A DNA stretch of 64,000 bases, from contig CM026565.1 of assembly GCA_015143295.1 (NCBI GenBank), positions 10,848,041-10,912,040 of the forward strand. The letters run 5' to 3'. Positions 1,312-62,596 of this stretch are shown here, in pieces. Numbering within the stretch: position 1 is the first letter of the stretch; every line of letters begins with the position of its first letter. The notes under the pieces are model-generated. The model had not been told where the DNA came from and searched no databases. It saw only the letters and a program-made list of their open reading frames with translations. This stretch comes from Tetracentron sinense (taxonomy: Eukaryota; Streptophyta; Magnoliopsida; Trochodendrales; Trochodendraceae). The position numbers were made by a program, and so were the translations under genes.

Positions 1312-1457
1312 CTGAAATTTTAACTAGCAGAGTTAATCCAAGCATCAACAGCGTATACATGTAGGTATATATACATATAGAACATGCCAAGTACGTACAC
1401 AGAGAATAGAGCATAACATAATAATCACGAATAAAGAAATTAACTCTAACTGCGTAC
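1312..1457 (-). other. Putative spliceosomal intron between gag and protease of G1
   Basis: On the minus strand the sequence is CAAG|GTACGC ... TTTCAG|GAACC. Removing 146 bases joins the gag frame (codons for VVQ) to the protease frame (LLVNE) with a split glycine codon. If kept, the gag frame reaches a stop at 1345-1347. G2 has an intron at the same codon with the same GTACGC donor but different internal sequence and length (135). Splicing is inferred from the frames. Intron-containing plant gypsy elements are known in the Ogre group, at a different place. Confidence 0.75.
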
Positions 1458-3339: not shown

Positions 3340-3459
3340 CTACTGATAACCCTCTACGGGAGGTTCCTCCAAAGGCTCCTCGACGTACTCCTCTTCCACC
3401 CATGGACCAGGAGCACAAACATCAAATGGAGCAGCAGCTCCCTCAGAACATGCCGACAT
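3340..3459 (-). CDS. LTR-encoded short ORF, MSA-PWVEEEY type (G1 copy)
   Basis: 39 codons, beginning MSACSEGAAAPFD, with PWVEEEYVEE in the middle and ending VEGYQ before TAG. The peptide is short and very acidic, with no membrane segment. Eight other LTR copies in this window carry a recognisable version at the same place, just after a conserved stem-loop, and differ mostly at third codon positions. It lies in the transcribed leader upstream of gag, so it would be an upstream ORF. I know of no named family that matches. Function unknown; it could also be a conserved nucleic-acid signal that happens to be open. Confidence 0.5.
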   Translation of the reverse strand: MSACSEGAAAPFDVCAPGPWVEEEYVEEPLEEPPVEGYQ

Positions 3460-13395: not shown

Positions 13396-13607
13396 TGTAG
13401 CACCCCGGATTTTTCTATACTTAATGAATACCGTTTTCGTAACTAATTGGCCTTCCTCATAGTCTAATTAATAAATAAGAGAGAAATCAGAAATTCCAAA
13501 ACATCAGAAATGTGTGTTTTCGAAAGACGAACACAACGCAAGTTGAATCGTCAAAATCCGACGAGCGAGTCAAAAAATATGGTCAAAACAGTCTAGACAT
13601 ACAGAGA

Positions 13608-13862
13608 ACCGATCGCTCGGTCCAGTCAGCGATCGATCGGTTCATAACCGATCGATCGGTAGCTATCGCACGGTCAAAAAAATTTGTATGGGGAAATTTT
13701 CCAGAGAGTTGATTTTTGACCGAGATCTCGGTCAATCAACCGATCGCTCGGTAGGCAACCGATCGATCGGTCATAACCACCGATCGCTCGGTCTTCGCGT
13801 TTTTGCAGAAATTTCATTAAGGGCATTTTCATCTTTTGGGTGTTAAACCCTTTCCCATAAGG
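13608..13862 (+). promoter_or_regulatory. G2 LTR promoter: eight palindromes in 4 + 4 layout
   Basis: ACCGATCGATCGGT-type sites at 13608, 13628, 13647 and 13661, a 43-base spacer containing GTATGGGGAAATTTTCCAGA, then sites at 13719 (ACCGAGATCTCGGT), 13739, 13758 and 13779. A weak TATA-like CCCATAAGGG lies at 13853. The spacer is shared, in the same place, with the 5588-6782, G3 and solo LTRs. Confidence 0.6.
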
Positions 13863-14780
13863 GTTTGCTCGACCCTTTGAGGCCTCACTTACAACATTTG
13901 AGGGATTTTGAGAGATAGAGAGAGAAGAGGAGAAAGCTCTAACCTAGGGTTTGGTTTTGAGAAGGAAATCAAAGGGGGTTTAAGAACCATAGCTCACCCC
14001 AACTCGAGTTGCTTCAAAATCGAGGCTCAAGCTCGTGTGGGAGCCACTCTCCAAGCTCGGGCAGCCATCTCACGTACGTTTTGAAAGGGGTTTCTTCCCC
14101 AACTCAAGTCTCCTTCAAGCAAAGGTGTTCTTCTTTCAAGTTGGAGCTTCAATCAAGGTTTCTACCAAGGATCAAGCCTTGATCTAAGGTTAGTACACCC
14201 TACTAACTTACCCTAGCAATAAATCTAGGTTTTTCTTATGAAATATGATTCTTGTTAGTATGTTTTATTCCTTGCAAAATGTGTCATTTATAATAATTAC
14301 AAATAAGATAAAGAAAGGGTAGGGATGCTTGGATGGAGGTTGGATACGGCGATTGGATGCCGAATGTGTGATGTATGATGTGTGGGTTGTGGATTGGAAA
14401 ATGAAGGATGGGCATAGGACAAATAACAAACTTAACATTGTGTGATTGAATGGAAAATATGCATTTAAAAGAAGGAGATAAACTACTAGGGAATAATGTA
14501 TGAAAGTGTTTGACAAAATACCTAAACTATGAATAAATGATCTCAATGAAGAATAGAAATGGGTTTTATGCATGCGTTCTTATAAATGATAAATTGATCA
14601 AATGTTATGCAAACTACTTATGTTACCTATGTTCATATCATGAATTGAATTATAATGTCATATTTTGGTTATTCCCATTATCATTATTGTCACTATGGAC
14701 ACGTACATGAGCACGCATGATAGCATGAACCGTGATTTCAAGAGCATGTGCATATAATAAACAACAAGAAAATATTGCAT

Positions 14781-15131
14781 GTCAAGGAGGTTGGTAGCCC
14801 AGGGAGGATTCGGGTACTAACCTCTGGCTCACAAGATAACCCCTAAAACACCTATTGTCAAGGAGGTTGGTAGCCCAGGGACATTCGGGGTACTAGCCTC
14901 TGGCTCACAAGAAAACTAAACAAGTAATAAAAATCACCTATTGTCAAGGAGGTTGGTAGCCCAGGGACATTCGGGTACTAACCTCTGGCTCACAAGAAAA
15001 CCATGCATTTCATAACAAGGAGGTTGGTAGCCCAGGGACATTCGGGTGCTAGCCTCTGGTTCACAAGTGCATTGCATATCAAGGAGGTTGGCAGCCCAGG
15101 GAGATTCGGGTGCTAGCCTCTGGCTCACAAG
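14781..15131 (+). repeat. Five tandem hairpin units in G2 5' LTR
   Basis: Unit of about 60-85 bp containing CAAGGAGGTTGGTAGCCC, a short loop, then GGGTACTAACCTC and TGGCTCACAAG. GAGGTTGGTA pairs with TACTAACCTC, so each unit can form a hairpin in the leader RNA. The 3' LTR has four units (22352-22636), so a unit has been gained or lost since insertion. Confidence 0.8.
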
Positions 15132-15389
15132 TTACAAGATGGAGGTTTACAAGATGATGATCATGCATTCATGCATGCACGCATACATGATTTCTACGAG
15201 GTATACCGGGACATGACAGGGGTTTTCAAGCATGAGTTTTATCGGCGTTTTCGCATTCATGTACGCACGTTAGGATGCTTGTATTGTGTCATGCCCTATA
15301 CTGTTTCTTTGTGATGTTTCTATTACTGCTTGTATGATATTACTATTGTGTGTTTTATTATTGTTATGGTCTGCTAGTAGCTTGTACTC

Positions 15390-15410
15390 GCTGAGTATTC
15401 CATGCTCAGC
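15390..15410 (+). other. Conserved LTR stem-loop (G2 5' LTR)
   Basis: GCTGAG, loop TATTCCATG, CTCAGC; nine bases before the short ORF start. The 3' LTR copy is at 22896-22916. Confidence 0.7.
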
Positions 15411-15419
15411 CGTACTTTC

Positions 15420-15560
15420 ATGTCGGCAGGTACTGAGGGAGCCCTCGACCCGGAGCCTTGGGTCGAGGAAGAGTATATAGAGGAGAGAGAGCCGGCTATT
15501 CCATTACAGTCTCAGGCGGACCGAGACCTCGATGCGTGGCCATACCTCGACTACTGTTGA
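15420..15560 (+). CDS. LTR-encoded short ORF, MSAG-PWVEEEY type (G2 5' LTR)
   Basis: 46 codons: MSAGTEGALDPEPWVEEEYI at the start, then a C-terminal part with SQADRDLDAW ending in LDYC. The ten codons for PWVEEEYIEE differ from the LTR copy at 62180-62299 at five sites, all third positions and all synonymous. The C-terminal half is shared with the LTR fragment at 54755-54895 but not with the G1/G3 type, which ends EGY(Y). It lies about 1.5 kb downstream of the TATA and 0.6 kb upstream of the gag ATG, hence in the genomic RNA leader. Function unknown. Confidence 0.5.
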   Translation: MSAGTEGALDPEPWVEEEYIEEREPAIPLQSQADRDLDAWPYLDYC

Positions 15561-15847
15561 GGGGAGAGTATGAGAGGGTCTTGTGTATGTTGATATTTTG
15601 ATAGGTGGGCCTGTCCACCTTAGACTTAGACATGTCTTGTATTTATGTTAACTTGGAATACTATTTTGGATCATCAGAAGAAATGAAAATTTGTTTACGC
15701 TTCCGCATATATGATAGCTTCCGCGCTCTAATTATCGTTGTTAGTATTGTATTTTATCTTGTGCATTACAGGATGGTTTGATAGGTACGCAGTGTGACAC
15801 CTAAAATATCCCGAAACTCCTAGGGGGTATTTCGGGGCGTTACAGAG

Positions 15848-15859
15848 TAGTATCAGAGC
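15848..15859 (+). other. G2 primer-binding site
   Basis: TAGTATCAGAGC, one mismatch to TGGTATCAGAGC (initiator-methionine tRNA), three bases after the LTR. Confidence 0.8.
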
Positions 15860-16170
15860 TCTAGGCATTAGAGTCCCTAGGGTCACTTAGATGATTGAAC
15901 AAGGTATTAGAATCACCTTAGAGAGTTGTATTCCAAGTATAGACTAACAAGTTAGTCTTAGTCAAAATGGGTTGAACTTCAACCGAACATAGAGTCCTAC
16001 GCTAGGAACACGGATTGTATGTTATGCTATTGTGTTATATACCATGTGTACATTATTTGTGTTGTACTTATTAAATGTGCTTGATGAATATGTATTGAGT
16101 GAATTGCGAAATTGTACTAAATGCGTATCCAAGTTAGACTCATGTTGTATTGTCGTTCTCAGGAGAAATC

Positions 16171-17407
16171 ATGAGACGCAATACCCGGGGTCACGGGTAC
16201 AACACGAGGGGTAATGGAGGTGATGCTCCATTGGGTGATGATCAACCCGACTTTGCCCAAGCATTCGCATCCATAGCCAAGACTTTGGCTATGTTGGCGG
16301 CAAGGCAACCGGCCACTCCGCCTAATGCGGCACTCATACCGGCTCCTCCTAACCGAGCCCAAGCCGGGATAGAAGCTTTTCGGAGGATGAGGCCTCGAAC
16401 TTTTTGTGGAAGCATTGATCCACTTGTTGCCGAGGGTTGGATCCGGCAACTTGAGAAGATATTCTCGGTATTAGCACCTACTGAAGTGGAAAGGGTCACA
16501 TGGGCCGCCTTTATGCTTGAAGGCGAGGCCGATCATTGGTGGAACTCTGCACTTCAGACCCGAGAGTTGACCCGACAAGGTCAAGATTGGACTTGGGAGG
16601 AATTCTTGGAGGTTTTCAACAAGAAGTACTTTCCGGTCGGGATGAAAGAAAAGATGGAAGTCGAATTCATTACCTTGGAGCAAGGTAATATGTCCGTAGC
16701 GGCTTATGAAGCCAAATTTTCGGAGCTATCTCGATTTGCTCCACACATGATAGCGACCGAGGCTATGAAGGCCCGGAAATTCGAGAGGGGGTTGAAGGCC
16801 TATCTCAAGGACCGAGTCTCGATGTTTAGACATGAGACATATTCCGAAGTTGTTGATAAAGCATTATTGGCCGAGTCGAACTCCGAGGAGTTCTTCAAAA
16901 GGAGAGGAATGGAAAAAGGACAGTCGAGTAGTTCAGGGGAGAAAAGAGCAAGGACGAGCTTGTATCAGTCCACAGGGCCGGCTCAGTCACAGAGGATGTA
17001 TTCAGCACCACAGGCTCCCCGCTCTTTTGCTCCATCGACCTTTCGCCCGGCTACCTCATATGCTCCTCACCCCGCAGTTACTCAAGCTACGGGATATGCT
17101 CCTTCCTCCTATTTGCATGATGTCTGCACTCTTTGTGGAAGGAGGCATCCAGTGGGAGAATGCCGAAGGGTTACTGGAAGTTGCTTCCATTGTGGTGACC
17201 TTGGCCACATGGTTAGAGATTGTCCCCGACGTTAAGTGCCAGCTCAGTCTTCAGGGAGCATGCCCCCGATTAGGCAGACATCTCAGCCTAGCTCTTCTCA
17301 GGCTTCGAGGGCCTCACAGTCTACCCGGCCTCCTCGTCCAGCCACACAGGGCCGAGTCTTTGCCTTATCCGAGAGAGACGCACGTGCATCCGACGATGTC
17401 GTGCAAG
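16171..17407 (+). CDS. gag: G2 gag, first exon, with a premature stop
   Basis: I start at the ATG giving MRRNTRGHGYNTRGNG because G1 gag starts the same way; an upstream non-ATG extension is not conserved. The Retrotrans_gag core spans about residues 60-240 (WIRQLEKIF, FMLEGEADHWW, WEEFLEVFNKKYFP). The zinc knuckle is CFHCGDLGHMVRDC at 338-351. A TAA at 17233-17235 ends the frame at 354 residues, immediately after the knuckle. Beyond it the same frame stays open, reading RVFALSERDARASDDVVQ to the intron donor at 17408, as in G1, so the TAA is probably a recent nonsense mutation. A full Gag core and knuckle could still be made, but not a Gag-Pol fusion without readthrough. Confidence 0.9.
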
Positions 17408-17542
17408 GTACGCAAAAATTCTAGAGTCTAAGTTGTGTAAAATTTCTATGGTTAATTATGTGATTAATTATACTAAGGGTTACCTATATATGATGCTTGT
17501 TGTTGTTTGAAATCTACTAATAGTAGCTACTTAATAACACAG
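17408..17542 (+). other. Putative spliceosomal intron between gag and protease of G2
   Basis: CAAG|GTACGC ... ATAACACAG|GCGCTT, 135 bases, AT-rich inside. Joining the exons yields VVQ-G-ALLVNE in one frame, matching G1 after its own intron is removed. Retained, the frame stops at 17422-17424. The donor hexamer is identical in G1 and G2 while the interior is not alignable by eye, which favours selection on splicing. Confidence 0.75.
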
Positions 17543-20500
17543 GCGCTTTGTTAGTGAACGAGTGTCTCGCCCGAGTGTTGATCGATACAGGATCCACTCA
17601 CTCCTTTGTGTCGCCTAGTTTCGCAAAGGTATTTTTGACTGAGGCTACTCCGTTAAAGCAGGAGTTGACCATTGGAACTCCACTCGGCAAGTCAGTTGAT
17701 ACGGACAAGATATTCAGGGATAGTGTGGTTCAAGTGGGGGAGAATGAACTGTTAGCCGATCTCATCGTCCTAGATTTTCAAGACTTGGATTTTGATGTCA
17801 TCTTAGGGATGGATTGGTTGTCAAACCATCACGGGCATGTTGCGTGTTTTGAGAAGATGGTGAATTTCAAGCCGGAAGGGGGTAAGCCTTTTCACTTCCG
17901 AGGATTAAGAGAGAGGGATATTGCTCGCCTCGCAGCCTTGAGTGTAGCAAACCTAGAAGCACAAAACTCCTCGGCCATTCCAGTCGTGAGTGATTTCTTG
18001 GACGTGTTTCCGGAGGAACTTCCCGGGTTACCTCCGAATCGGGAGATTGAGTTCGCTATAGAGCTTACTCCGGGCACCGCTCCGATTTCAAGAGCCCCAT
18101 ATAGAATGGCCCCGATAGAGCTTGAAGAATTGAAGAAGCAAATTGAGGAGTTACAACAACTTGGTTTCATCCAACCAAGTGTGGCACCGTGGGGAGCTCC
18201 GATCCTTTTTGTAAAGAAGAAAGACGGGTCGATGAGAATGTGTATAGACTACCGTCAGTTGAACAAGGTAACTATCAAGAATCGTTATCCCTTGCCAAGG
18301 ATCGATGACTTGTTCGACCAACTGAAGGGAGCGAGATTCTTCTCCAAAATTGATCTTAGATCGGGGTATCATCAATTAAGGATCAAGGCGGAAGATGTTC
18401 CGAAGACGGCTTTCAGGACTCGATATGGGCATTACGAGTTCCTTGTCATGCTTTTTGGGCTGACGAATGCACCGGCGGCATTCATAGATTTGATGAACCG
18501 GGTGTTCCGATCTTACTTGGATCGATGCGTGATTGTATTCATTGATGACATTTTGGTGTATTCCCAGACACGGGAAGATCACGCACGAGACCTCCGCCTT
18601 GCTCTGGAAATGTCGAGAGAGCATAGGCTATATGCCAAATTGAGTAAGTGCGAGTTCTGGTTAGAGAAGGTCGCATTTCTTGGACACATGGTGTCGGCCG
18701 AGGGTATTTCTGTAGATCCAACCAAGGTTGAGGCAGTCATGAGTTGGGAGAGGCCTAAGAGCGTCACGGAGATACGTAGTTTCCTCGGATTGGCAGGCTA
18801 CTACCGGAGATTTGTGGAGGGATTCTCCAGTTTGGCTGCACCTCTCACCTACTTGACAAGGAAAAATGCAAAGTTCAGTTGGAGTGACCGATGTGAAGTA
18901 AGTTTCCAAGAGTTGAAGAAACACCTCACCACAGCCCCTGTCCTTACTGTGCCATCTGGACCTTTTGGGTATGAGGTGTACAGTGATGCCTCGCATGTTG
19001 GACTCGGGTGTGTCCTAATGCAACACAAGAAGGTCATTGCCTATGCATCAAGGCAGTTGAAAGAGCATGAAAAGAACTACCCCACTCACGACTTGGAGCT
19101 TGCGGCGGTCGTGTTTGCACTCAAAATTTGGCGACATTATCTGTACGGGGTGGAGTTCTCTGTGTACACGGACCACAAGAGCCTCAAGTACCTCTTTTCC
19201 CAAAAAGAGCTCAATTTGCGACAACGGCGTTGGATTGAGTTCTTAAAAGACTATGAGTGCACGATCCAATATCACCCGGGAAAAGCAAATGTGGTGGCAG
19301 ACGCTTTGAGTAGGAAACCATCGGGGTTGTTGGCTCACATGTTGGTGAGGGAATGGAGACTGTTAGACGATTTGGCAAATCTAGACATCAGTGTGAACGA
19401 TTCTGTCCGCAGTCCAGTTTTGGCAAATGTTACAGTTCGGCCGTACCTTATAGACTTGATCCAGGAGTATCAAGCCACGGACACTGACTTGTTGGCTTTT
19501 CGGGATAGGGAAGTGGCCAAGGGTAGTACGGACTTCTCTCTCACTAGCCGAGGTGCTATTACATTCAAGGGAAGGCTTTGTGTCCCAGCCAATGCAGACC
19601 TTCGGAGAGAGATTATGGACGAAGCTCACCGGTCTAAGTATACAGTGCATCCCGGGGGGACAAAGATGTACCGGAACCTCAAGAGTCACTTTTGGTGGCG
19701 AAACATGAAGATGGAGGTTGCGGAGTATGTGGCAAGGTGTTTGGTGTGCCAACAGGTGAAAGCGGAGCATTTGAGACCGGCGGGTCTTTTGCAGTCTCTC
19801 CCTATTCCCGAGTGGAAATGGGAACATATCTCTATGGACTTCATCGTGGGGTTGCCAAAGACGGTTAGGAAGACCGATGCTATATGGGTAGTCGTTGATA
19901 GACTCACGAAGTCCGCTCATTTCTTACCGTACCGGACTACATTCAACTCCAATCAGTTAGCGGAGCTATACATCAAGGAAATAGTCCGATTACACGGGGT
20001 GCCAGTGAGTATTGTGTCAGATAGAGACCCAAGATTCACATCCAGGTTTTGGAAAAGTTTTCAAGGTGCAATGGGCTCCCGGTTAGACTTTAGCACAGCT
20101 TTCCACCCACAGACCGACGGGCAAACCGAGAGGGTGAATCAGGTTATTGAAGATATGCTCCGAGCATGTATGCTAGACTTCAAGGGGAGTTGGGAAGATC
20201 ACCTACCTTTGGTGGAATTCGCTTACAACAATAGTTATCAAGAGAGCATACAAATGGCGCCTTTCGAGGCTTTGTACGGAAGGAGTTGTAGATCCCCGTT
20301 GTATTGGGATGAAGTGGGAGAAAGAAAGATTTTGGGCCCCGAGTTAATTGAACAAACCGCGGATAGGGTCAAGCTTATCTGGGAGAGGTTAAAGGCCGCA
20401 CAAGATAGACAGAAAAGCTATGCCGACAACCGAAGGAGGGATCTTGAATTCCGAGTCGGTGATTTTGTGTTTGTAAGGACTTCACCGACCAAAGGTGTTA

Positions 20501-20874
20501 TGCGATTCGGGAAGAGAGGCAAGCTTAGCCCGAGATATGTGGGTCCGTTCGAGATCATTGCTCGAGTTGGTGAGGTAGCTTACCGGGTTGCTTTACCCGC
20601 TCATATGGCGGCGGTCCACAACGTGTTTCACATCTCCATGCTCCGGAAGTATATCCCGGATCCTTCACATGTCGTCGAACTTGATACGATAGAGATCCGA
20701 GAGGACCTCAAGTTGGTTGAGAAGCCGATTCACATATTGGATCAAAGAGACCAAGTGCTTCGCAACAAGACTATACCGCTAGTCCTAGTGCAATGACAAC
20801 ATCACGCGAGAGAAGAAGCCACGTGGGAGCGTGAAGCCGAAGTCAAAGCAAAGTATCCCGAGTTGTTTGAATAG
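17543..20874 (+). CDS. pol: G2 pol: protease, reverse transcriptase, RNase H, integrase, chromodomain-like tail
   Basis: Open from the 3' splice site to a TGA at 20794-20796. Numbering from the leucine codon at 17548: protease DTG at 13-15; RT with [18 protein letters not shown] and catalytic FIDD at 331-334; RNase H aspartate 480 in [10 protein letters not shown] and DHKSLKYLF; integrase zinc motif H694, H701, C731, C734; catalytic D764, D825, E861 (35 residues between the last two); GPF module at 999-1001 in [10 protein letters not shown]. The tail [20 protein letters not shown] is chromodomain-like. The TGA replaces a tryptophan codon present in G3; the frame then continues [21 protein letters not shown] to TAG at 20872. 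The TGA removes about 26 residues of the targeting module. Confidence 0.93.
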
Positions 20875-20950
20875 ACTTATGCATATGGCTTGTAATTTTG
20901 TTTTGATTTTGTGCATGTATGTATCGTCCAAATTTCGGGGACGAAATTTT

Positions 20951-20966
20951 TGAAAGGGGGGGAGAA
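20951..20966 (+). other. G2 polypurine tract
   Basis: TGAAAGGGGGGGAGAA immediately before the 3' LTR; plus-strand priming site. Confidence 0.85.
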
Positions 20967-23350
20967 TGTAGCACCCCGGATTTTTCTATACTTAATGAAT
21001 ACCGTTTTCGTAACTAATTGGCCTTCCTCATAGTCTAATTAATAAATAAGAGAGAAATCAGAAATTCCGAAACATCAGAAATGTGTGTTTTCGAAAGAAG
21101 AACCCAACGCAAGTTGAATCGTCAAAATCCGACGAGCGAGTCAAAAAATATGGTCAAAACAGTCCAGACATACAGAGAACCGATCGCTCGGTCCAGTCAG
21201 CGATCGATCGGTTCATAACCGATCGATCGGTAGCTATCGCACGGTCAAAAAAATTTGTATGGGGAAATTTTCCAGAGAGTTGATTTTTGACCGAGATCTC
21301 GGTCAATCAACCGATCGCTCGGTAGGCAACCGATCGATCGGTCATAACCACCGATCGCTCGGTCTTCGCGTTTTTGCAGAAATTTCATTAAGGGCGTTTT
21401 CATCTTTTGGGTGTTAAACCCTTTCCCATAAGGGTTTGCTCGACCCTTTGAGGCCTCACTTACAACATTTGAGGGATTTTGAGAGATAGAGAGAGAAGAG
21501 GAGAAAGCTCTAACCTAGGGTTTGGTTTTGAGAAGGAAATCAAAGGGGGTTTAAGAACCATAGCTCACCCCAACTCGAGTTGCTTCAAAATCGAGGCTCA
21601 AGCTCGTGTGGGAGCCACTCTCCAAGCTAGGGCAGCCATCTCACGTACGTTTTGAAAGGGGTTTCTTCCCCAACTCAAGTCTCCTTCAAGCAAAGGTGTT
21701 CTTCTTTCAAGTTGGAGCTTCAATCAAGGTTTCTACCAAGGATCAAGCCTTGATCTAAGGTTAGTACACCCTACTAACTTACCCTAGCAATAAATCTAGG
21801 TTTTTCTTATGAAATATGATTCTTGTTAGTATGTTTTATTCCCGGCAAAATGTGTCATCTATAATAAATACAAACAATATAAAGAAAGGGTAGGGATGCT
21901 TGGATGGAGGTTGGATACGGCGATTGGATGCCGAATGTGTGATGTATGATGTGTGGGTTGTGGATTGGAAAATGGAGGATGGGCATAGGACAAATAACAA
22001 ACTTACCATTGTGTGATTGAATGGAAAATATGCATTTAAAAGAAGGAGATAAACTACTAGGGAATAATGTATGAAAGTGTTTGACAAAATACCTAAACTA
22101 TGAATAAATGATCTCAATGAAGAATAGAAATTGGTTTTATGCATGCGTTCTTATAAATTATAAATTGATCAAATGTTATGCAAACTACTTATGTTACCTA
22201 TGTTCATATCATGAATTGAATTATAATGTCATATTTTGGTTATTCCCATTATCATTATTGTCACTATGGACACGTACACGAGCACGCATGATAGCATGAA
22301 CCGTGATTTCAAGAGCATGTGCATATAATAAACAACAAGAAAATATTGTATGTCAAGGAGGTTGGTAGCCCAGGGAGGATTCGGGTACTAACCTCTGGCT
22401 CACAAGATAACCCCTAAAACACCTATTGTCAAGGAGGTTGGTAGCCCAGGGACATTCGGGTACTAGCCTCTGGCTCACAAGAAAACTAAACAAGTAATAA
22501 AAATCACCTATTGTCAAGGAGGTTGGTAGCCCAGGGACATTCGGGTACTAACCTCTGGCTCACAAGAAAACCATGCATTTCATAACAAGGAGGTTGGTAG
22601 CCCAGGGACATTCGGGTGCTAGCCTCTGGCTCACAAGTTACAAGATGGAGGTTTACAAGATGATGATCATGCATTCATGCATGCACGCATACATGATTTC
22701 TACGAGGTATACCGGGACATGACAGGGGTTTTCAAGCATGAGTTTTATCGGCGTTTTCGCATTCATGTACGCACGTCAGGATGCTTGTATTGTGTCATGC
22801 CCTATACTGTTTCTTTGTGATGTTTCTATTACTGCTTGTATGATATTACTATTGTGTGTTTTATTATTGTTATGGTCTGCTAGTAGCTTGTACTCGCTGA
22901 GTATTCCATGCTCAGCCGTACTTTCATGTCGGCAGGTACTGAGGGAGCCCTCGACCCGGAGCCTTGGGTCGAGGAAGAGTATATAGAGGAGAGAGAGCCG
23001 GCTATTCCATTACAGTCTCAGGCGGACCGAGACCTCGATGCGTGGCCATACCTCGACTACTGTTGAGGGGAGAGTATGAGAGGGTCTTGTGTATGTTGAT
23101 ATTTTGATAGGTGGGCCTGTCCACCTTAGACTTAGACATGTCTTGTATTTATGTTAACTTGGAATACTATTTTGGATCATCAGAAGAAATGAAAATTTGT
23201 TTACGCTTCCGCATATATGATAGCTTCCGCGCTCTGATTATCGTTGTTAGTATTGTATTTTATCTTGTGCATTACAGGATGGTTTGATAGGTACGCAGTG
23301 TGACACCTAAAATATCCCGAAACTCCTAGGGGGTATTTCGGGGCGTTACA
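20967..23350 (+). repeat. G2 3' LTR (2384 bp)
   Basis: Nearly identical to 13396-15844 apart from one missing hairpin unit. The palindrome array is at 21179-21363, hairpin units at 22352-22636, stem-loop at 22896-22916 and short ORF at 22926-23066. It ends at the CTATG target duplication. Confidence 0.95.
22926..23066 (+). CDS. LTR-encoded short ORF (G2 3' LTR copy)
   Basis: Same 46-codon frame as at 15420-15560, with no disabling change. In a 3' LTR it may lie near the RNA 3' end or be driven by the 3' LTR promoter. Function unknown. Confidence 0.5.
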   Translation: MSAGTEGALDPEPWVEEEYIEEREPAIPLQSQADRDLDAWPYLDYC

Positions 23351-28444: not shown

Positions 28445-30353
28445 GGCAAAAATAAAAATTCACTGTTGAAAATTTAGGTGCATGATAGCAGGTTTTTGGC
28501 ACACAGTTTGCTAGGGTTCATGGAAAACCCTAGGGTTGCCGGTGGGGAGGAGGGTGTTTCCTTCCCCCGGCCACCACTTCATACTCCTTGTCTGCGGGAT
28601 TCTTATGCTTCGGTATTAGGAGGCTCAAGCGGATCAGGTAATCGTTTTTCTCACCTCAATGATTTCAGTTTTGATCACATCAAGGACGTGAAGAAGGTCT
28701 CTTCCTTTCAAGGAGAACCTACATTATTTTATTCAGTTGAAGAACTTAATACTTCTGCGGCTGTATTCAAAAATGCCCTTATTGCTAGATTTTCTTTTGG
28801 TAGATCTTCTATTGAAGTATTGAAAAATCATATTAAAGGATCGTTCCATACCAAACTTGTCATATCTGTTGGAATTCTTGATGAGAGTCATATGCTCAGT
28901 AGATTCAAATCTGAAGAAATTACTTGCTGTTTGGTTAAAAGAATTTAGCTATATAGCGGGGCAGTTGGTTAGATTCATTAAATGGACTCCATTATTTCAA
29001 GCAGGAACAAATCCTTCTGTGGTGCCGGTTTGGATATCTCTTCCAGGGCTACCGATCAACTTGTTTAATCCCAAGGATCTGAAGGCCGTCGGTAGTATTG
29101 TTGGGAGGGTTTTGAAAGTGGATGGGCCGACTAAAACAATCTCTAGACCTAGTTTGACGAGAATTTGTGTTGAGGTTGATGTTAATAAAGAAAAGATTAG
29201 CAGGTTTTGGCTTGGTTTAAGTACTGTGGGGAGATGGCAATCCATCGTCTATGAAAAAGATCCAATAATTTGTGCATCTTGTAACAAGGTGGGGCATTCC
29301 AAGGAGGAATGTAACAAGAGTGATAAAAAACTTTATAGAGGAGCAGATCCGAGAAGACTCAAGAAACATATGAAGGATACTCAATCAAAAGAAAAGAGTA
29401 CGGAAGGTTTGATCAAAGATAATAGGTTCAAGGAAACTACTTCTAAATGGGTTGAGAAAACCTTTGGGAAAACGAATGAGGCAACAAGCAAAGAGCAAAA
29501 TCATGGAAAACAAGAGAAGAACAAAGAAGAGATCAAGAAAACAGGGAATCAAAAAAGCATGAAGGAAAAATCAGCAGTGAATTTAGAAAGCCAGAATTAT
29601 AAGAAAGATAGTAATCAAAATATTGCTATTGCTAGACTGGGGGAAGATCCAGACACTTAAGTTCAGGCTGGGATTAGTAACAATACCAATAAAAATATTA
29701 GAATGGTTATGCACGTACAACAAAGTTTTTTTATCAAAGAACCAGAACCAGAACCAAAAGTCTATTGCGTCTGAGATAGGAGCATATATTCAATCCAGGA
29801 AGGAGCAAAACAGCAATCTAAAGACAGTTTTTGTTCCGGATTCTCCGCAGTAAGGTTGTAATATGTTCCCAATTATTCAAGATATATCCAATGGGAGTTC
29901 AGTTGAGGAGGATGAAGAGCAAGTCAGAATTCTTCATGACCAGTTCACAGATGGTCACTGGCAACATGGGGATGATAATCTGCAAAAGGATAAAGATTTG
30001 GGGAGAGTTGAAGAACAAGATGATACCATAGAAGGAAGTACTGGTCTTGATAACAGTTTGTATGATGGAAAAAATGTGGATGCGGAAGATAATATGTCAC
30101 GCCCCAAAATACCCCCTAGTAGTTAGGATACTTTGGCGACTTGAACTCATAACCAAACCATCCTATATAACATATGAATCCTGTACAACATATAAAACCT
30201 GTGATAGCGGAAGCGTAATACTAATCTATATATGGTAGTGGAAGCGGACTACAAAATTTCTATCAATAGTATATGTCTCAGTTTATACATGACCCAAAAT
30301 AAAGACCGAACATACTCACTCAACAAAATATATGTACATGTCTCTCCCTCTCG

Positions 30354-30509
30354 TCACTCATGATGGGGCCACCTAACAAAAGCCCTCTGCTCCTCCTGAG
30401 CCCTCTGCTGCTGAAGACTACCCCAAGTCTCCTCCTCCTCAACATACTCTTCCTCGACCCATGGTTCTTGAGGACGCTCACCACAAATGTCGAAGGGACC
30501 TGCTGACAT
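30354..30509 (-). CDS. LTR-encoded short ORF (solo LTR copy)
   Basis: 51 codons starting MSAGPFDICGERPQEPWVEE, continuing EYVEEEETWG and a glutamine/glutamate-rich tail to TGA. N-terminal spacing is shorter than in G1, yet MSAG, PFD and PWVEEEYVEE are kept, although LTR sequence around it differs strongly. This divergent copy gives the best support for peptide-level conservation. Confidence 0.5.
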   Translation of the reverse strand: MSAGPFDICGERPQEPWVEEEYVEEEETWGSLQQQRAQEEQRAFVRWPHHE

Positions 30510-30519
30510 AATATGTACG

Positions 30520-30540
30520 GCTGAGCATGGAATACTCAGC
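30520..30540 (-). other. Conserved LTR stem-loop (solo LTR)
   Basis: Same GCTGAG / CTCAGC stem and 9-nt loop as in G1 and G2, ten bases before the short ORF. Confidence 0.7.
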
Positions 30541-32000
30541 GTATACAAACCACTAGATAGTAATATCGTAAACAAGAATACAACGTGTACATATCACAAT
30601 CTAATCATCTCACATACATTCCTGAAATCAGAGCGCGGAAAACAAAATCATATCATGTGCATATATCTCGGAAAATACTATCGGAAAACATCTTTTTATC
30701 ATCTTTTGTCTTTTACATCTTCTTATCATCTTTTGTCGAAAACATCTTCTTATCATCTTGTACCTTTGCATATACGGGTATTTAAAATACCTTGGCTTTT
30801 ATCTTTTATTATCCTGTACGGGTATTTAAAATACCTTGGTATTCATCATTTGCTACCTCCGGAGTAGGACAACTAGTACCTGTACCCACGTAAGCTGGGT
30901 GGCCTAATGTTCTCCTCACCTTCGGCTACCTTAAGGGTAGACGACCAGTATCCATCTCCCTTCCGGGCGGCCTGCTATCATCGGAGTCCGATGCTAGTAT
31001 CCCTTTCCCTTTCAGGCGGCCTGCTATCGTCGCATCCCTGTCGGCTTTTTCCGTATACTTTCCATCTTCTTGTATTTCTTGTAACATCTTGTGCTTCTTG
31101 TATTTTCCGTATGTATCTTGTGCTTCTTATACTTTTCCTTATACCGCTTGTGCTTCTTATACTTTCTGTATACATCTTGTGCTTCTTGTACTATTCATTT
31201 GGTTCATTTACATCTTATACTTTTCGTGTGGTTCATTTGCATCTTATACTCTTCTTCTTCTTATTCTTGTATTGCATCTTATATACATGTATTTCTTCTT
31301 TTGGGATACCCATAATTTAGAAAAACTCGATCATGCATATGCATATGTGTCCGTATAGCAGTTGTGATATAACATGGCAGACATTAGGGAAAACCCTTTA
31401 CATATGGTCATATGTCTCATACTCAACATAATTCATCCATCACCATAATCCATATACAATAACATCACACCATTCCAATCACATTTAAAATAAGGTTTTT
31501 CTACTTGTTCTTCCCAAAACTTGTTGCTTTTAACATGCTTTTCATCTTGGATACTAACATATAGAAAAACTCAAAAATTACCATCTTTTATTTGTTGGTT
31601 GGAAGCATAACATCATCACATTTAATTCACACCATCATTCATGGGATTTTATCTTGATGTAGAAAGGGTTTCATGAAATCAATTGCTAGAAGAGTGTATT
31701 TTTACATATAAGAGGCTATATATAACTATACTTGTCAAGAAAATCATGCTTTTCATTAAGGGTTTATGAAATTAGAACCTAGTAGAGTGTATCTACCTTA
31801 GAGAAATCAATGAGTTTGACTCCCAATGGCTGGAACAAGCAAGAACAGTGAGTTCTTGGTTGGAAAACACCAAATGGAAACGAAGAACTTGATCTTCCAC
31901 AAGCTTGAACGATCACCAAGGTTCTCTCCTCCTTCTCCTCTTCAAATCCCTCAAAAACAATGCACAAAGGGTTTTTTTGAAACCCTAAGGCATGAACCCA

Positions 32001-32252
32001 GCCCTTTTATAGGCAAAGGGTGATGGTTAAAGTCTTAAACACCCTTAATGAAGAAAATCTGCGTAAGACCGATCGATCGGTGGTATGGACCGAGCGATCG
32101 GTGGCTTACCGGTCGATCGGTGTTATGACCGAGAGATCGGTCAAAAACACACTCTCTGGAATTTTTCCCCATACAAAAAAGTTGACCGTGCGACAGCTAT
32201 CGAGCGATCGGTAGTTGACCGATCGATCGCAGGTAATGATCGAGCGATCGGT
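32001..32252 (-). promoter_or_regulatory. Solo LTR promoter: TATA and 4 + 4 palindromes
   Basis: In element sense the TATA is CCTATAAAAGGGC (32013-32001). Palindromes start at 32068, 32089, 32108 and 32128, then, after the conserved spacer with CTCTCTGGAATTTTTCCCC, at 32185 (degenerate), 32199, 32218 and 32239. Confidence 0.65.
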
Positions 32253-32888
32253 CGACCCCTGTTTTGCTGAAAAACCTTGTTTACACCACTCGAATCTTCC
32301 CCAATGCACTTCCAACACTCTTTTATGCTTTCAACACATTCCCTAAGGACATATAGACCCATTGGAACATATACGCCATAATTCCAAACACATATATTAA
32401 CATAAGACTCATAAGTGTACAAAACCACACTTGGGCACTATTCACACACTATTCATTCTTAGTGAAATGAAATTTTCGGGGCTCTACATAATATGGGAAT
32501 GGGATTTCAGAATGATAGAGATATTAATTATGATTACTGTAATGTGGAGGATGAGGATCATCAGAAATTATTGGAAGCTCTACAGCTGGCTAAACCTAAA
32601 GTTAAGTTTCGGTCTAAGGAAGAAAGAATTGCAAAAACGAAGTTTCTCATGGATGAGGGCAGCAGTTCGGAAGTGAGAACGGGAAGAAACAAAATAAATC
32701 TGAACATGGACAATTTCATTCAAAGTTGCAAAATTTTTTCTAATAGAATAGTGGGTTCAGTTTGGTTGAAAAATTATAATAGTAATTTCCCGTAAAGGTG
32801 TTAGAAGAACATCCTTCCTTCATAGAAGTTAGAATGACAAGATCGAAGACTAGAGCTGGTCTTCTCCCTGATATCCAAAAAGTTTCTA

Positions 32889-48869: not shown

Positions 48870-48995
48870 CTAGTAGTAGCCCTCTACATGAGGTACCTCA
48901 GTAGGGGCCTCCTCGACGTACTCCTCTTCCTCCCATGGACTGGGAGCACATGTGTCAAAAGGAGCGGGCATTCCACTAACACCTGCCGACATCAT
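48870..48995 (-). CDS. LTR-encoded short ORF (G3 3' LTR copy)
   Basis: 41 codons starting MMSAGVSGMPAPFDTCAPSP, then WEEEEYVEEAP, ending EGYY before TAG. The V of PWVEEEY is E here and in the other G3 LTR. The frame remains open even though this LTR is old and the adjacent stem-loop has mutated. Confidence 0.5.
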   Translation of the reverse strand: MMSAGVSGMPAPFDTCAPSPWEEEEYVEEAPTEVPHVEGYY

Positions 48996-54090: not shown

Positions 54091-55172
54091 TCATCATGGT
54101 TGCCACTATTGACAAGCACGCAAGCACGCATGCTTGCATGAACCGGGTTTTTCAAGAGTATTAGTACATGATAAATTAAACAAGAAACAAGCACATGACA
54201 AGGAGGTTGGTAGCCTAAGTGAAGGATGCTAGCCTCTGGCTCACAAGAAAATGAAATAATTACATGTCAAGGAGGTTGGTAGCCCAAAGGAAGGGTACTA
54301 GCCTCTGGCTCACAAGTGAAAGGAAACAAGTACATGATAAGGAGGTTGGTAGCCCAAGTGAAGGGTGCTAGCCTCTGGCTCATAAGAGAATGGAATGTCA
54401 AGGAGGTTGGTGGCCCAAGGATGTGTGGGTGCTAGCCTCTGGCTCACAAGTATACAAGGCAAGAACAAGTCTAGACATGAAATACAAGACAAGACAGACA
54501 AGCATGCATGATTTTCACAAGCAAGACCGAGACATGAAAAGGGTTTCCCAACATGAGTTTTATCAAGGTTTTCGCATTTATGCACGCATGTCAAGACACA
54601 AATATTGCTTTATGTTCCATACTATTTATCTTCTACTGCTAGTATTACTTTAATTGATATTTCATATCGTGTTCATTGTCGTTATGCTTCCGTTATTGCT
54701 ATGGCTAGCTAGTAGGTTGTACTCGCTGAGTATTCCAGGCTCAGCCATACTTTTATGTCGGTAGGTTCCGTGGATGTCCTCGACCCTAAGCCTTGGGTCG
54801 AGGAGGAGTACATAGAGGAGAGGGAGCCTTCTATTCTGTTACAGTCGCAAGCGGATAGAGACCTCGACATGTGGTCGTACCTCGACAATTGTTGAGAGGA
54901 GAGTACGAGAGGGTTCTTTTGTGTATTTTGATAGGTGGGCATATCCACCTTTACCCTGTTATGTTTTGTATATATTCACTTGGGATACAAACCACCTTAT
55001 ATAGAAAAGAAAATTTTGGTATACGCTTCCGCATTCATGATATAGCTTCTGCACTCTGATTCATGTTATATTATGGTATGTGTACCGTGTTCATTACAGG
55101 ATGGTCTAGCAGGTACGAATAGTCACCTCTATAGTATCCCTTAACTCCTAGGGGGTATTTTGGGGCGCGACA
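54091..55172 (+). repeat. Partial gypsy LTR replacing the G3 gag/protease junction
   Basis: Plus orientation, similar to the second half of the G2 LTR: four AGGAGGTTGGTAGCCCAA hairpin units (54198-54450), stem-loop (54725-54745, loop changed), short ORF (54755-54895), end GGGGCGCGACA at 55172. Its first half is missing and there is no obvious target duplication, since flanking G3 sequence is also missing. Left boundary uncertain by about 15 bases. Confidence 0.75.
54755..54895 (+). CDS. LTR-encoded short ORF (54 kb LTR fragment)
   Basis: 46 codons starting MSVGSVDVLDPKPWVEEEYI, with the SQADRDLDMW block and ending LDNC before TGA. Same length as G2; differences from G2 include many third positions but also several replacements in the first dozen codons. 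The frame is intact although the LTR is a fragment. Confidence 0.5.
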   Translation: MSVGSVDVLDPKPWVEEEYIEEREPSILLQSQADRDLDMWSYLDNC

Positions 55173-55672
55173 GATGAACTCCCACTCTTTCTTTTCCCGA
55201 GCTCTAACCGGGAAGTACTTCTTGTAGAAGACATCCTTGAACTCTTCCCAAGTCCATGGTTGACCATGCTTGGTCAAATCCTGAGTCCTGAAGGAGGACA
55301 ACCACCAATGGTGTGCCTCACCCTCTAGTATGAAAACAGCCCATGCCACTTTATCTTCCTCTGTGGACGAGAGGACTGCGAAGATCTTCTCTAACTGGAG
55401 AATCCAAGCCTCTGTAGCAAGAGGGTCCACACTCGCATGGAATGATAGAGGCCTCAATCTCTGGAATGCCTCAACCCTAGCTGTGCGTTGTGCTGGAGCT
55501 GCAGGCGGTGGAGTAGGTGCTGCCGATGAAGGATTAGTCTGCCGAGCTGCCAATATGCTAGTGTCTCAGCAATAGAGCCTGAGACCAGAGAGAGGTCCGG
55601 CTGCTCAACCTCATCTCGAGAAAAAGAGGAAGCTCTAGTGTGTGTCCCACGACCCCGTGTGCCCCACCTCAT
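55173..55672 (-). pseudogene. G3 gag, N-terminal part
   Basis: The ATG at 55672 gives MRWGTRGRGTHTRASSFSRD as in G1. A frameshift near 55560 leads to the frame with [37 protein letters not shown] and KYFPVRAREKKEWEF, cut at 55173 by the LTR fragment. The second half of Gag, the zinc knuckle and the intron are absent. Confidence 0.88.
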
Positions 55673-56031: not shown

Positions 56032-58310
56032 TGTCATGACAGAAACCCACCCTACGAGTTAGAGTGAATCTTGGACGACTTATCATGACTTACATGACCT
56101 GCTTGACAAACCATCCTGCAAAACATACGGAGCATATACGATAGAGCACCCAATAGTGGAAGCATAAACTAATCATGGCACAGCGGAAGTCTAACCAAGC
56201 CTCTATGTATATACATGAAATCCAAGTTTTATACAAAATGAAATCAAAAAAAAGAAAGTGCGGACATGCCCACCAAAATACATGAGTATAAATCTCTCAA
56301 GCTCACCCCACTCTCACTTTGAATTTACCACCTAGTAGTAGCCCTCTACATAAGGTTCCTCTGCAGGGGCCTCCTCGACGTATTCCTCTTCCTCCCATGG
56401 ACCGGGAGCACAGATGTCAAAAGGAGCGGGTGCTCCACTAACACCTGCCGACATCAAAAGTACGGCTGAGCATGGAATACTCAGCGGGTCCCAAATACTA
56501 ACCAACAATCATAGCATATAATAATGGAAATAAGCAGGAAGCAGTTCATATAATTGACAGGAAAACTAAACAATTGATAGTTCATGCTTGCATCATATCA
56601 AAGTCGGAAAAACCCTTGAAAACATCATGTGCTTGACTTGACATGAAATAGTCCTTTCGTGTTTGAAAACTTGTCTTGTCATGTTCTGTCTTGTTCGTTT
56701 TGTCGTGTCATGTCATGTCTTGCTTGTCGTTTCATATCATGTATTTCTTGTCTTGTCATGTCATGCATTCCATTTCATGTCTTGCTTGCTTGGAATTTAA
56801 ATACGCTCATGCTACTTGTGAGGGAGGTTGGTGTAGAACCCCCTCTTCCAAAATGAGATACAACTTGTGAGGGAGGGGAAACCCCTCTTTAGCAAAAATG
56901 CATTGAAGTAAACATGCATGCTTTGAGGTTCTTATTCTTGTTAAAAGCGAGGCAAAACATATCTGAAGATATGCCCTACCTCTCATACCAACCCTTACGT
57001 TTGGCCTTGTCATAGTGTTCGTGAATCGAGAATAAAACCCTTTTCTTGAAAACTCGGTAAACCATGTCATACATGCCGTGCTCGTGAAGTCGTGTACATG
57101 CTTTAACTTAGAATTAAACGTGACATTTGAAAATTCAATAATGCATGATATAATATTCATTTCAACACATAAATATTCATGCCATTAGAGAAAGCAAATA
57201 ATCACACTATCATAAACCCTAGCAATTTCCATATGCTTTAAGTCATGCTTTTCTTGATTTATGATTCATTCTCTTCATCTTGACATTTCATCAAACATAT
57301 GGTGTGTACATTATGGTTAGAGCCTATATCTTGATTTTCTAGATGGATTAATGCTCACCACATACATGTATGTTCATTATTTGTACAATGCCCTTCCCAT
57401 TTCATTCATCCCAAACCATACACAAGGCATCCATCGCCCATACACCACCATCCATCTCCATCCATTCCCCCAATACGTTATCATGTTTAGAATTTGGTCA
57501 AAACTAATAAAAGAAGAAGAATATGAACTAGGAGGGTAGCATAGGGTAACGACCTTGAAAAGATGAGAAAAACCTCCCAAAACGTGCGTAGAGTCGTTGC
57601 CGAGCTCGGAGGAGGTGCTCCTCAAGTGCTTGAGCTGTGTGCTTGAAGAAATCCAAGCTTGTGATGATCTAGGGTTCTTAAACTCTTGATTTCCCTCAAG
57701 TTGAAAACCATAGGTTAAAAATCCCCTTCTCCTCTCTCACTCTCTCTAAAATGTTGATGAGTGCTGTGTGTGGGAAGCCAAGGCTCGAGCAAGCCCTTAT
57801 AAGTAAGGGTGTAACGCCCAAAAGACGAAAAAACCCTTAATGAAATTCTACAAAAACACGAAAGACCGAGCAATCGGTGGTTATGACCGAGCGATCGGTC
57901 GCCTACCGTACGACCGGTGTTCTTGACCAAGCGATCAGTTGAAAACACCCTCTCTGGAAAAATTCCCCATATGAAAAGGTTAACCAGTCGATAGATACTA
58001 ATCGATCAGTTGTGGACTGATCGATTGCTACTTTGGACCGAGAGATCCTTTATCTGCAAATTTTGACACTGAGTCCATTTTCCACTCAATCCACTACTTG
58101 GACTTATCACACTTCTATTTTAACCTCTTCTAAACATGACTAGGACCTTTCTAAGGCTATGACATATTCATAATTATTTTATTTTATTATTTATAGCATT
58201 CTTGCAAAATTCTCAAAGGTTCCAATTCTCATTTCATGAAAATGGAGATTACAACGCATCATGCCTTGACACAAATTCCAAGACACATACAAAAGTTTCG
58301 GGGCTCTACA
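56032..58310 (-). repeat. G3 5' LTR (2279 bp)
   Basis: Inner edge TGTCATGACAG, outer edge GGGGCTCTACA. Contains the short ORF (56332-56454), stem-loop (56465-56485), hairpin units near 56813-56890 and a decayed palindrome array (57862-58045). Confidence 0.9.
56332..56454 (-). CDS. LTR-encoded short ORF (G3 5' LTR copy)
   Basis: 40 codons starting MSAGVSGAPAPFDICAPGPW, then EEEEYVEEAPAEEPYVEGYY and TAG. No stop has accumulated even though the neighbouring palindrome array has lost several sites. Confidence 0.5.
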   Translation of the reverse strand: MSAGVSGAPAPFDICAPGPWEEEEYVEEAPAEEPYVEGYY

Positions 58311-61559: not shown

Positions 61560-62596
61560 CAGCATGTAGTCCACGAGTAGGGTTTCAAGCATTAAACACC
61601 ATGTGTTGTTTTCAAGGTTTTATACCCGATTCACGAACACCATGACAAGGCCAAACGAAAGGGTTGGTAAATAGAGGTAGGGCATATCTTAAGATATGTT
61701 TTGCCTCGCCTTTTTGACACAAACAAGAATGTCCCAAGCATGCATGTTACATTCAATGTATTTCGTTAAAGAGCGGTCTCCCCTCCCTCACAAGTTGTTT
61801 CTCATTTAGGAATCCCTCACAAGTAGCATGAACATGTTTATTTTCCAAGCAAGCATGATACATGACATGACATGGATGACATGCATGACAAGCATGACAC
61901 GCATGACACGCATGATACAAGCATGATACGTATGACACGATATGATACGGCAAGACAAGACAAGTTTTCACGCACGAAAAGAATATTTTCAAGGCAAGTT
62001 AAGCACATGATGTTTTCAAGAGTTTTTACCGGATTTGATGTGATGCAAGCATGAACTATAAACTGTTTGCTTTCCTGTATGATATAAATTGCTTCATGCC
62101 TTATATTGTTATTGCTATGCCATGGCTGTTGGTTAGTGTTTGGTACCCGCTGAGTATTCCATGCTCAGCCGTACGTCTTATGTCAGCAGGTGATAGTGGA
62201 GCGGCTGCTCCTTTCGACATCTATGCTCTTGGTCCATGGGTGGAGGAGGAGTATATCGAGGAAGTCCCTGCTAAGGAGCCTCATGTAGATGGTTATTAGG
62301 TGGTAGATTCTAAGTGAGAATGTGGGTGAGCATGAGAGATTTATATTCATGTATTTTGGCAGGCATGTCTGCACTTTCTTTTGTGAGTTCATTGTGTACA
62401 AAACTTGGATCATGTATATACATAGAGGTTTTGTTAGACTTCCGCTGTGCCATGTAGTGTATGCTTCCGCCATTTTAGTCCTCTATTGTATATGCTCCAT
62501 GTATTTTTGCAGGTTGGTTGCCACGCAAGTCATGTAGGTCATGACAAGTCGTCCAAGATTCACTCTAACTCCTGGGGTGGGTTTTGGGTCATGACA
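61560..62596 (+). repeat. 5'-truncated gypsy LTR (G1/G3 type), plus orientation
   Basis: It matches the reverse complement of the G3 LTR from about the GATTCACGAACAC block (61621) to the end GGGTCATGACA at 62596. Contains a CATGACACG-rich tract (61865-61940), stem-loop (62149-62169) and short ORF (62180-62299). The left boundary is approximate. No primer-binding site follows, so it is a 3' or solo LTR remnant. Confidence 0.75.
62180..62299 (+). CDS. LTR-encoded short ORF (62 kb LTR)
   Basis: 39 codons starting MSAGDSGAAAPFDIYALGPW, then VEEEYIEEVP, ending HVDGY before TAG. In the PWVEEEYIEE block it differs from the G2 copy at five codons, all synonymous third-position changes. The open frame continues upstream to 62051 through LSIPCSAV in the stem-loop, but in G2 that part is out of frame, so the ATG at 62180 is preferred. 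Confidence 0.5.
   Translation: MSAGDSGAAAPFDIYALGPWVEEEYIEEVPAKEPHVDGY

Follow-up and report, generated by a model that had tools for sequence, protein, structure and literature searches.

A short acidic coding sequence under purifying selection, headed by a splice-acceptor-like boundary, in the long terminal repeats of Tetracentron sinense chromoviruses

Coding within long terminal repeats (LTRs) is known from animal retroviruses, in the superantigen of mouse mammary tumour virus (MMTV) and in nef, which overlaps the 3' LTR of human immunodeficiency virus (HIV). Here we describe a short open reading frame (ORF) inside the LTRs of retrotransposons in a 64-kb stretch of the Tetracentron sinense genome (the window, in which all coordinates are given). 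We take these elements to be Ty3/gypsy chromoviruses, probably of the Tekay/Del-like lineage. The ORF is protein-coding and under purifying selection, and its frame is anchored at a conserved boundary, YAG/GT (the slash marking the presumed junction), which looks like a 3' splice site heading a coding exon. The MMTV superantigen and nef are, to our knowledge, unrelated to this plant LTR exon.

The closest analogue of a gag-linked 3' exon is CERV of Cer1, a Ty3/gypsy element of C. elegans, in which spliced exons shared with gag are joined to a 3' exon of selected sequence (PMC10309623). Compared to CERV, the exon considered here is short and lies inside the LTR; phase 1 at both the gag donor and the LTR acceptor would allow a comparable in-frame junction. 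Plant LTR retrotransposons are generally intron-less, with Ogre and EVADE named as exceptions in a 2025 review that also lists spliced short-GAG mRNAs for EVADE and BARE1 (PMC12786077). In these Ty1/copia elements (EVADE/EVD and BARE1), alternative splicing yields Gag without pol and raises Gag over Pol (PMC12786077, PMC7730604). However, splicing there excises the protease domain with a stop soon after, or transcription ends early, whereas in the present Ty3/gypsy chromovirus a conserved LTR exon would supply a selected acidic tail. Nanopore sequencing in sunflower found spliced short GAGs in Tyran and Varan, and the expressed set included no Tekay element (PMC7730604). In Ogre (Tat lineage), expression of the polyprotein is governed by an intron that is spliced out only in part (PMC6317226); here, by contrast, the intron would lie between gag and protease, with a second fitting acceptor in the LTR. 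Within the excerpts of that 2019 classification, the passages on introns and splicing describe Ogre and none concerns Tekay. BAGY2 and Athila are plant gypsy elements with predicted splice acceptors downstream of pol, but what they would splice to is an env-like ORF situated between pol and LTR, not an LTR exon (PMC2829016). Extra coding sequence in the Tekay lineage is represented by the 5' additional ORF (402 amino acids) of sunflower Tekay 13-2, which differs in being ~10 times longer, separate, and equipped with a basic nuclear localization signal (PMC11728184). In grape, peptidogenomics placed 47 non-conventional peptides, with functions left open, in LTR-retrotransposon regions (PMC9070638). 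Searches of the open-licence literature, a body in which subscription papers are mostly absent, listed no title or abstract opening that describes an LTR ORF or exon or a Tekay gag-protease intron. The terms 'ORF', 'open reading' and 'splice' are absent from a survey of Del LTRs (PMC4029996), and a review that deals with additional ORFs (PMC7264820) likewise lacks 'within the LTR', 'inside the LTR', 'LTR region' and 'Tekay'.

An earlier, sequence-only reading of the window had listed nine LTR copies carrying the ORF at a like place, and reading back the frame confirmed it at all nine. Eight copies are complete, each with 39-51 codons, an ATG-TCR start, no internal stop, and a ten-codon acidic block, PW-V/E-EEEY-V/I-EE. 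The ninth (63971-64000, minus strand) is a 3' part truncated by the window end. Two copies, identical across the ORF, lie in the paired LTRs of the A element (13396-23350, plus strand), which is delimited by the target-site duplication (TSD) CTATG, an LTR pair of 96.5% identity, and TGTAG...TTACA ends with their flanks. In its 5' LTR (13396-15844), the ORF occupies 15420-15560 and the exon after the putative acceptor 15430-15560; in its 3' LTR (20967-23350), the ORF is at 22926-23066 and the exon would run from 22936 to a TGA stop ending at 23066, behind an acceptor AG at 22934-22935. A further plus-strand copy (54755-54895), with the acceptor-like site GTAG/GT, sits in an A-type LTR fragment (54093-55174), and another (62180-62299) in a B-type LTR. 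On the minus strand, the copy at 3340-3459 belongs to an old LTR (5587-3046) with the acceptor site mutated to GCATGT, and that at 30354-30509 to a solo LTR (32488-30095, TSD TATTA) with a putative exon from 30499. The copies at 48870-48995 (beginning MM-SAG, exon from 48982) and 56332-56454 (exon from 56444) lie in the probable 3' LTR (50821-48569) and probable 5' LTR (58310-56032) of a B element. These two LTRs, 92% alike and flanked by ATCCG and ATTCG (four of five bases matching), are probably the pair of one older element. The six LTRs with a located start measure 2.25-2.55 kb, within the span of 1143 to 4831 bp that the Del survey gives (PMC4029996).

The ORF evolves as a protein-coding sequence under purifying selection. 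Among the seven distinct window copies used for codon statistics (15420 and 22926 counted once), variable columns of the block fell 1/1/8 on the three codon positions (Fisher P = 3e-4). The 15420 and 62180 copies differ in the block at five sites, all third-position and synonymous, as had been noticed before. The ratio of nonsynonymous to synonymous rates (dN/dS) by the Nei-Gojobori method (NG86) was 0.17 in both of two independent pairs, 15420/54755 and 56332/62180; other finite values ranged from 0.16 to 0.60. Neutral simulations (20,000 per comparison, substitution rates from the flanking LTR, synonymous count as the statistic) gave, depending on direction, P = 2.5e-4 or 4.5e-4 for the first pair and P = 6.5e-4 or 5e-4 for the second, and P = 0.04, 0.04, and 0.02 for weaker pairs. 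The 48870/56332 pair showed three synonymous and eight nonsynonymous differences (P = 0.55), that is, neutral drift, and drift alone was expected there because the two LTRs probably belong to one element. Within families, the ORF was not consistently more alike than its flanks: in A its identity was 0.81 against 0.73, and in B 0.81 against 0.82 and 0.86. What marks it as coding is how changes fall within codons and that gap lengths are 0 or 3 bases. When four LTR alignments were scanned in six frames, the ORF ranked first in all four (P = 5e-7 to 0.017), while the best windows outside it gave P = 0.016, none, 0.31, and 0.021. Codon maximum likelihood (ML) on the seven copies, with omega = 1 fitted on a fixed tree with a kappa grid, rejected omega = 1, the likelihood-ratio test (LRT) statistic being 24.5 when only the part as far as the block was used, 29.6 with the complete ORF, and 7.6 in the B clade alone.

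The same pattern was found in a wider sample. For 20 copies (the seven of the window and 13 from the same genome) and 32 codon columns, the best grid omega was 0.25 and the LRT statistic 69.3. In a further family, D, variable columns fell 15/7/35 on the codon positions and parsimony-informative ones 8/4/22, among 19 copies selected by protein. The sampling qualifies these figures: the 20-copy set required copies to reach the block, which left out L032b (stop before the block) and L024 (frameshift), copies within one family are not independent, and loci L034-L063 were chosen by protein similarity, which inflates codon bias. Codon columns, dN/dS, simulations, six-frame scan, and ML all agreed on purifying selection on the LTR peptide. 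A dN/dS near 1 and equal rates at the three codon positions had been named in advance as outcomes that would contradict such selection; in the wider sample, omega was far below 1 and the rates were unequal.

To survey the genome, twenty 10-kb stretches (200 kb), picked by position and not by ORF, were drawn as an unselected sample from the 1.161-Gb assembly that contains the window. The 18 blastn clusters in this sample comprised 14 with a recognisable block after a hairpin that precedes the exon, three partial ones, and one (L032 4770-5300) without a block. Among the 14, an in-frame ATG just before the exon was present in nine, YAG/GT in 12, and a frame open from there through the block in 12; L024 had YAG/GT out of frame and L032a was open from GCAAGT. 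Two of the 14 were broken before or within the block, and a third (L014, plus strand) shortly past it. L029, a member of a further family, stood outside the exon counts because its sequence ahead of the primer site is broken up and in part consists of N. Protein searches were tallied over the best 150 matches per query, a favourable sample: all 150 A-type places had 100% identity and none had a stop, whereas one stop was found in 11 of the 150 B-type and in 14 of the 150 D-type matches. Freedom from internal stops even in old LTRs, as first claimed, therefore held within the window and not genome-wide, and the MSAG start proposed with it is clade-specific.

No Pfam family matched any of three LTR-ORF peptides, no PDB sequence matched the peptide at E <= 1, and no relative was confirmed when the peptide profile was run against IMG/VR and GTDB genomes or an integrase piece against IMG/VR. 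Protein-database searches returned four short relatives, P0001-P0004 (source 'ena', longest contigs 647-1261 bp), which may derive from the same or a near genome.

The position at which the frame begins was examined in 54 distinct copies from an exhaustive scan of the window and the fetched loci, with YAG/GT sought in any frame; scans testing only the A and the GT at the boundary are uninformative on third-base constancy and were not used for it. The first YAG/GT after the hairpin was present in 50 of the 54 copies, and in 49 of these 50 it shared the block's frame, the sole out-of-frame case being the decayed L024. The distance from the hairpin to the AG was 19 nt in six copies, 20 in 23, 21 in one, 22 in 19, and 23 in one, so that all three values modulo 3 occurred. 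The site read GCAGGT in all 19 scored D copies, and in 54755 and L015 the change from GCAG to GTAG retained YAG. We regard the AG boundary, like the selection, as established. These data bear on the idea that conservation acts on the nucleic acid only, as a hairpin, promoter or packaging signal, with the frame as a by-product. The neighbouring hairpin is indeed conserved at nearly all positions, but third positions of the ORF vary and first and second ones much less, in several families, and the boundary keeps to the frame of the block despite the varying distance; we consider this idea barely credible.

If translation began at the ATG, an ATG would be expected wherever the block persists. This was not so, and the ATG start thus fails as a general account. 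Between hairpin and block, none of the 20 fetched D copies had an in-frame M. Two D copies (L056, L057) had one inside the hairpin, as did L059, where a stop follows. Stops were found five codons before A-G in L047 and L051 and directly before S-A-G in L059; L061 had a one-base difference upstream of the boundary and none downstream. Outside D, a TGA closes the frame of L004 two codons ahead of A-G, and no in-frame ATG was present in L027 or L032a. A free-standing, ATG-started peptide, as the ORF had at first been described, was accordingly not upheld: the ATG is absent in D, in-frame stops can stand directly upstream, and the frame is kept after YAG/GT.

A more elaborate form of that idea deserves weighing. 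The LTR could be a small gene with a promoter, an ATG-free exon 1, an intron, and an ATG-TCR exon, making a free acidic peptide from 5', 3' or solo LTRs that would act in trans. Each of the eight complete window copies (families A, B, and C) has an ATG-TCR just before the AG, itself conserved although the third base of the Ser codon varies, and the relatives P0003 and P0004 also have M before AG. Exon 1 is free of ATG in A, C, and the fragment 6783-5588 (B1 has one) and closes with a donor-like end, and the hairpin contains a CTCAG that might be used as an acceptor, lying 10-11 nt ahead of the ATG in A. On the other hand, the absence of an ATG in all 20 D copies, L004, L027, and L032a is hard to accommodate, P0001 and P0002 have L at the ATG position, and the start context looks weak against the consensus. 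We judge a separate microprotein unlikely.

We lean towards a reading in which the LTR houses an alternative last exon; its use in place of pol would provide Gag with an acidic tail. Each LTR would carry a 3'-terminal coding exon of ~35-50 residues, starting at YAG/GT and having its own stop codon. An ATG-poor LTR leader exon would probably be spliced to an acceptor just before the gag ATG, so that gag is reached. The donor at the end of gag, CAAG/GTACG (phase 1), would then have two acceptors in the same phase. Joined to the nearby protease acceptor (intron of ~135-150 nt), it would yield Gag-Pol; joined to the exon in the 3' LTR, with pol skipped, it would yield Gag with an acidic C-terminal tail. 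The gag donor could join either exon because both begin in phase 1. Such a product might serve an excess of Gag over Pol or be a Gag isoform with its own role, and its tail may control RNA handling or packaging in competition with the basic nucleocapsid. From the shared Gly, the predicted tail has 43 residues in A, 48 in C, and 37 in B, with net charges of -11, -9, and -10, respectively. AlphaFold, run on an eight-row alignment (B-type ORF including the ATG), returned almost no secondary structure, with a predicted local distance difference test (pLDDT) score of 71 and a predicted template-modelling (pTM) score of 0.20, and the tail is thus predicted to be largely disordered. The Gag-tail reading is favoured because it accounts for where the boundary lies and for the phase, and also for the stop codon, the missing pol, and the fact that D has no ATG. 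Use of the LTR acceptor by the gag donor, and the function of the product, are inferences.

The surrounding splice-like signals suggest how gag could be reached. A TATA-like site (CATAAGGG at 21427-21434, plus strand; CTATAAAAGGG and TTATAAGGG in other copies) is present in five LTRs, where it precedes the ORF by ~1.3-1.6 kb. After it, a leader exon with few or no ATGs ends at a donor-like AAG/GTTAGTAC (21757-21768, plus strand) or a variant. ATG counts in this exon were 0 in 301 nt for A (5.2 expected), 1 in 216 nt for B1, 0 in 183 nt for C, and 0 in 302 nt for the fragment 6783-5588, with B2 and the 3340 LTR excluded since the patterns did not match. From the donor-like site up to the ORF, 50-62 ATGs follow in the four LTRs counted, and between ORF and gag there are 17 more in A and 16 in the 3340 element. 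Because of these many ATGs, a ribosome scanning unspliced RNA would hardly reach the ORF or gag. ATGs in the intron-like parts of the LTR (e.g. A 14189-15419) were about twice or more as frequent as composition predicts (53 vs 26, 61 vs 22, and 62 vs 28).

The ORF had originally been placed in the genomic RNA leader upstream of gag, where it could act as a regulatory upstream ORF controlling gag translation. It does sit between the TATA-like site and gag, and an ATG-started ORF is present in the A, B, and C copies of the window. However, 50-62 ATGs precede it in the LTRs counted and 16-17 more stand before gag, none of the 20 D copies has the ATG, and the C-terminal end differs between families. 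In stalling peptides, the C-terminal end is usually what matters. We consider a leader ORF very improbable, and the earlier placement gives way to a boundary that is acceptor-like and in phase with the gag donor. Splicing of the leader exon to the LTR acceptor was rejected as a coding model, as exon 1 lacks an ATG in A copies.

Directly before the gag ATG (16171) stands a 3' splice-site-like TTCTCAG/GAGAAATC (16160-16173, plus strand). TTCTCAG/GA, with a conserved GACTCATG 20-30 nt upstream, was found in A and both B elements, B2 reading TTCTCAGAA; a pattern search for TTCTCAG/GA (...ATGAG), which by its nature gives no rate, returned 12 further matches at 11 distinct places. The putative gag-protease introns, both with GT...AG ends and in phase 1 as computed for the two elements, span 135 nt at 17408-17542 (plus strand) and 146 nt at 1312-1457 (minus strand) in the 3340-type element. 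Excising either restores a DVVQ-G-[A/T]LLVNE reading. The donor CA[AG]G/GTACG was found 141-159 nt before 11 of 11 protease starts in the window and loci, a count that omits a second L029 match (8 residues, E = 0.28), and a CAG/G acceptor before ten of the 11, that of L027 being lost.

Several observations weigh against the Gag-tail reading. Four of the 54 copies lack YAG/GT (L032a and L032b, GCAAGT; 3340, GCATGT; L059, GCGGGA), P0001 reads A-S at the boundary, and the LTR acceptor has no good pyrimidine tract. An in-frame M precedes the boundary in 28 of the 54 copies, besides the conserved ATG-TCR of the window. The predicted gag-to-LTR intron would be long, measuring ~5.5 kb in the A element. 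The acceptor also occurs in the 5' LTR, where it is open to use by the leader donor, and agreement in phase alone has a one-in-three chance. A combination, with a spliced Gag tail in all families and an ATG-started peptide in the A/B/C clade, would accommodate both signals conserved in A, B, and C and the splice signal as the only one kept in D; it requires two mechanisms, and we regard it as quite improbable. Both this combination and the separate microprotein are retained because the Gag-tail model leaves the conserved ATG-TCR of A, B, and C unexplained. Should the Gag-tail reading hold, plant chromoviruses might resemble complex retroviruses at the RNA level, with a leader that is spliced, an intron between gag and protease, and an LTR-borne alternative 3' exon giving a selected acidic-tailed Gag isoform, a wider picture that we put forward tentatively.

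Because the exon lies in the LTR, each transposition places a copy of it at either end of the element, and solo LTRs retain it. The loose first-look candidates numbered 25,979, 24,299, and 23,147 for the A-, B-, and D-type protein queries; if most are real, the exon is present in thousands to tens of thousands of LTRs across the genome. Host transcripts could capture such exons, and host genes would then have in these LTRs a supply of exons ready for use. Since plant LTRs are regarded as non-coding and masked accordingly, a selected exon would be a missed part of the proteome of an abundant transposon lineage. The Gag-tail reading also offers a testable answer to the open question of how a chromovirus with a single gag-pol frame produces Gag in excess of Pol.

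The A element encodes gag, protease, reverse transcriptase (RT), RNase H, and integrase in chromovirus order, with Pfam matches to Retrotrans_gag, zinc knuckle, RVP_2, RVT_1, RNase H, Integrase_H2C2, and SH3_Tf2-1. Its gag runs from 16171 to 17407 (plus strand) at the putative donor CAAG/GTACGC (phase 1), and the protease, RT, RNase H, and integrase frame from 17543 to 20796 (plus strand). This copy is defective, with a nonsense TAA in gag (17233-17235) and a TGA (20794-20796) before a chromodomain-like tail, EEATWE...YPELFE, which is readable past the premature stop. The tail and a primer-binding-like GTATCAGAGC after the LTR fit a Tekay/Del chromovirus.

The hairpin upstream of the exon, GUAC..GCUGAGUAU-UCC-AUGCUCAGC.GUAC (15384-15415, plus strand), has 13 pairs and a nearly invariant sequence, and ends ~20 nt (19-23) before the exon. 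In its alignment, 96.7% of cells were paired, but no change occurred on both sides. Minimum-energy folding gave a different structure for 54755 and 48870, and for 56332 a shorter one. With two AGs and an ATG enclosed, the hairpin could hide competing splice sites. Past the stop codon by ~0-60 nt, a GTGGG..TGTCCAC-like inverted repeat, perhaps a 3'-end signal, was seen in A, B, D, and L032 copies (e.g. 15604-15618, L004, L027, L032); the pattern search found none in C or L024. Just upstream of the TATA-like site, a U3 array of CGATCG palindromes, CCGATCG[CA]TCGG(T) (21181-21358, plus strand, in the 3' LTR of the A element), recurs in B, C, and the fragment 6783-5588, LTR families otherwise strongly diverged, and likely represents transcription-factor or methylation-related sites. 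Tandem units of AGGAGGTTGGTAGCCCAGGGACATTCGGGT.. occupy 22357-22640 in the intron-like part of the LTR.

Among the insertions, the A-type LTR fragment 54093-55174 is nested within the B element (58310-48569), between gag and pol, and the solo LTR at 30095-32488, with its TSD TATTA, was inserted into sequence resembling a long interspersed nuclear element, with ORFs on either side (~28.5-36.3 kb). Elsewhere in the assembly (G000:C20:21256961-21273184, the first part in L012), four A-type LTR exons share one orientation and are spaced at 5357-5365 bases. They may belong to elements arrayed in tandem, the spacing being shorter than the ~7.5 kb from repeat to repeat in the window.
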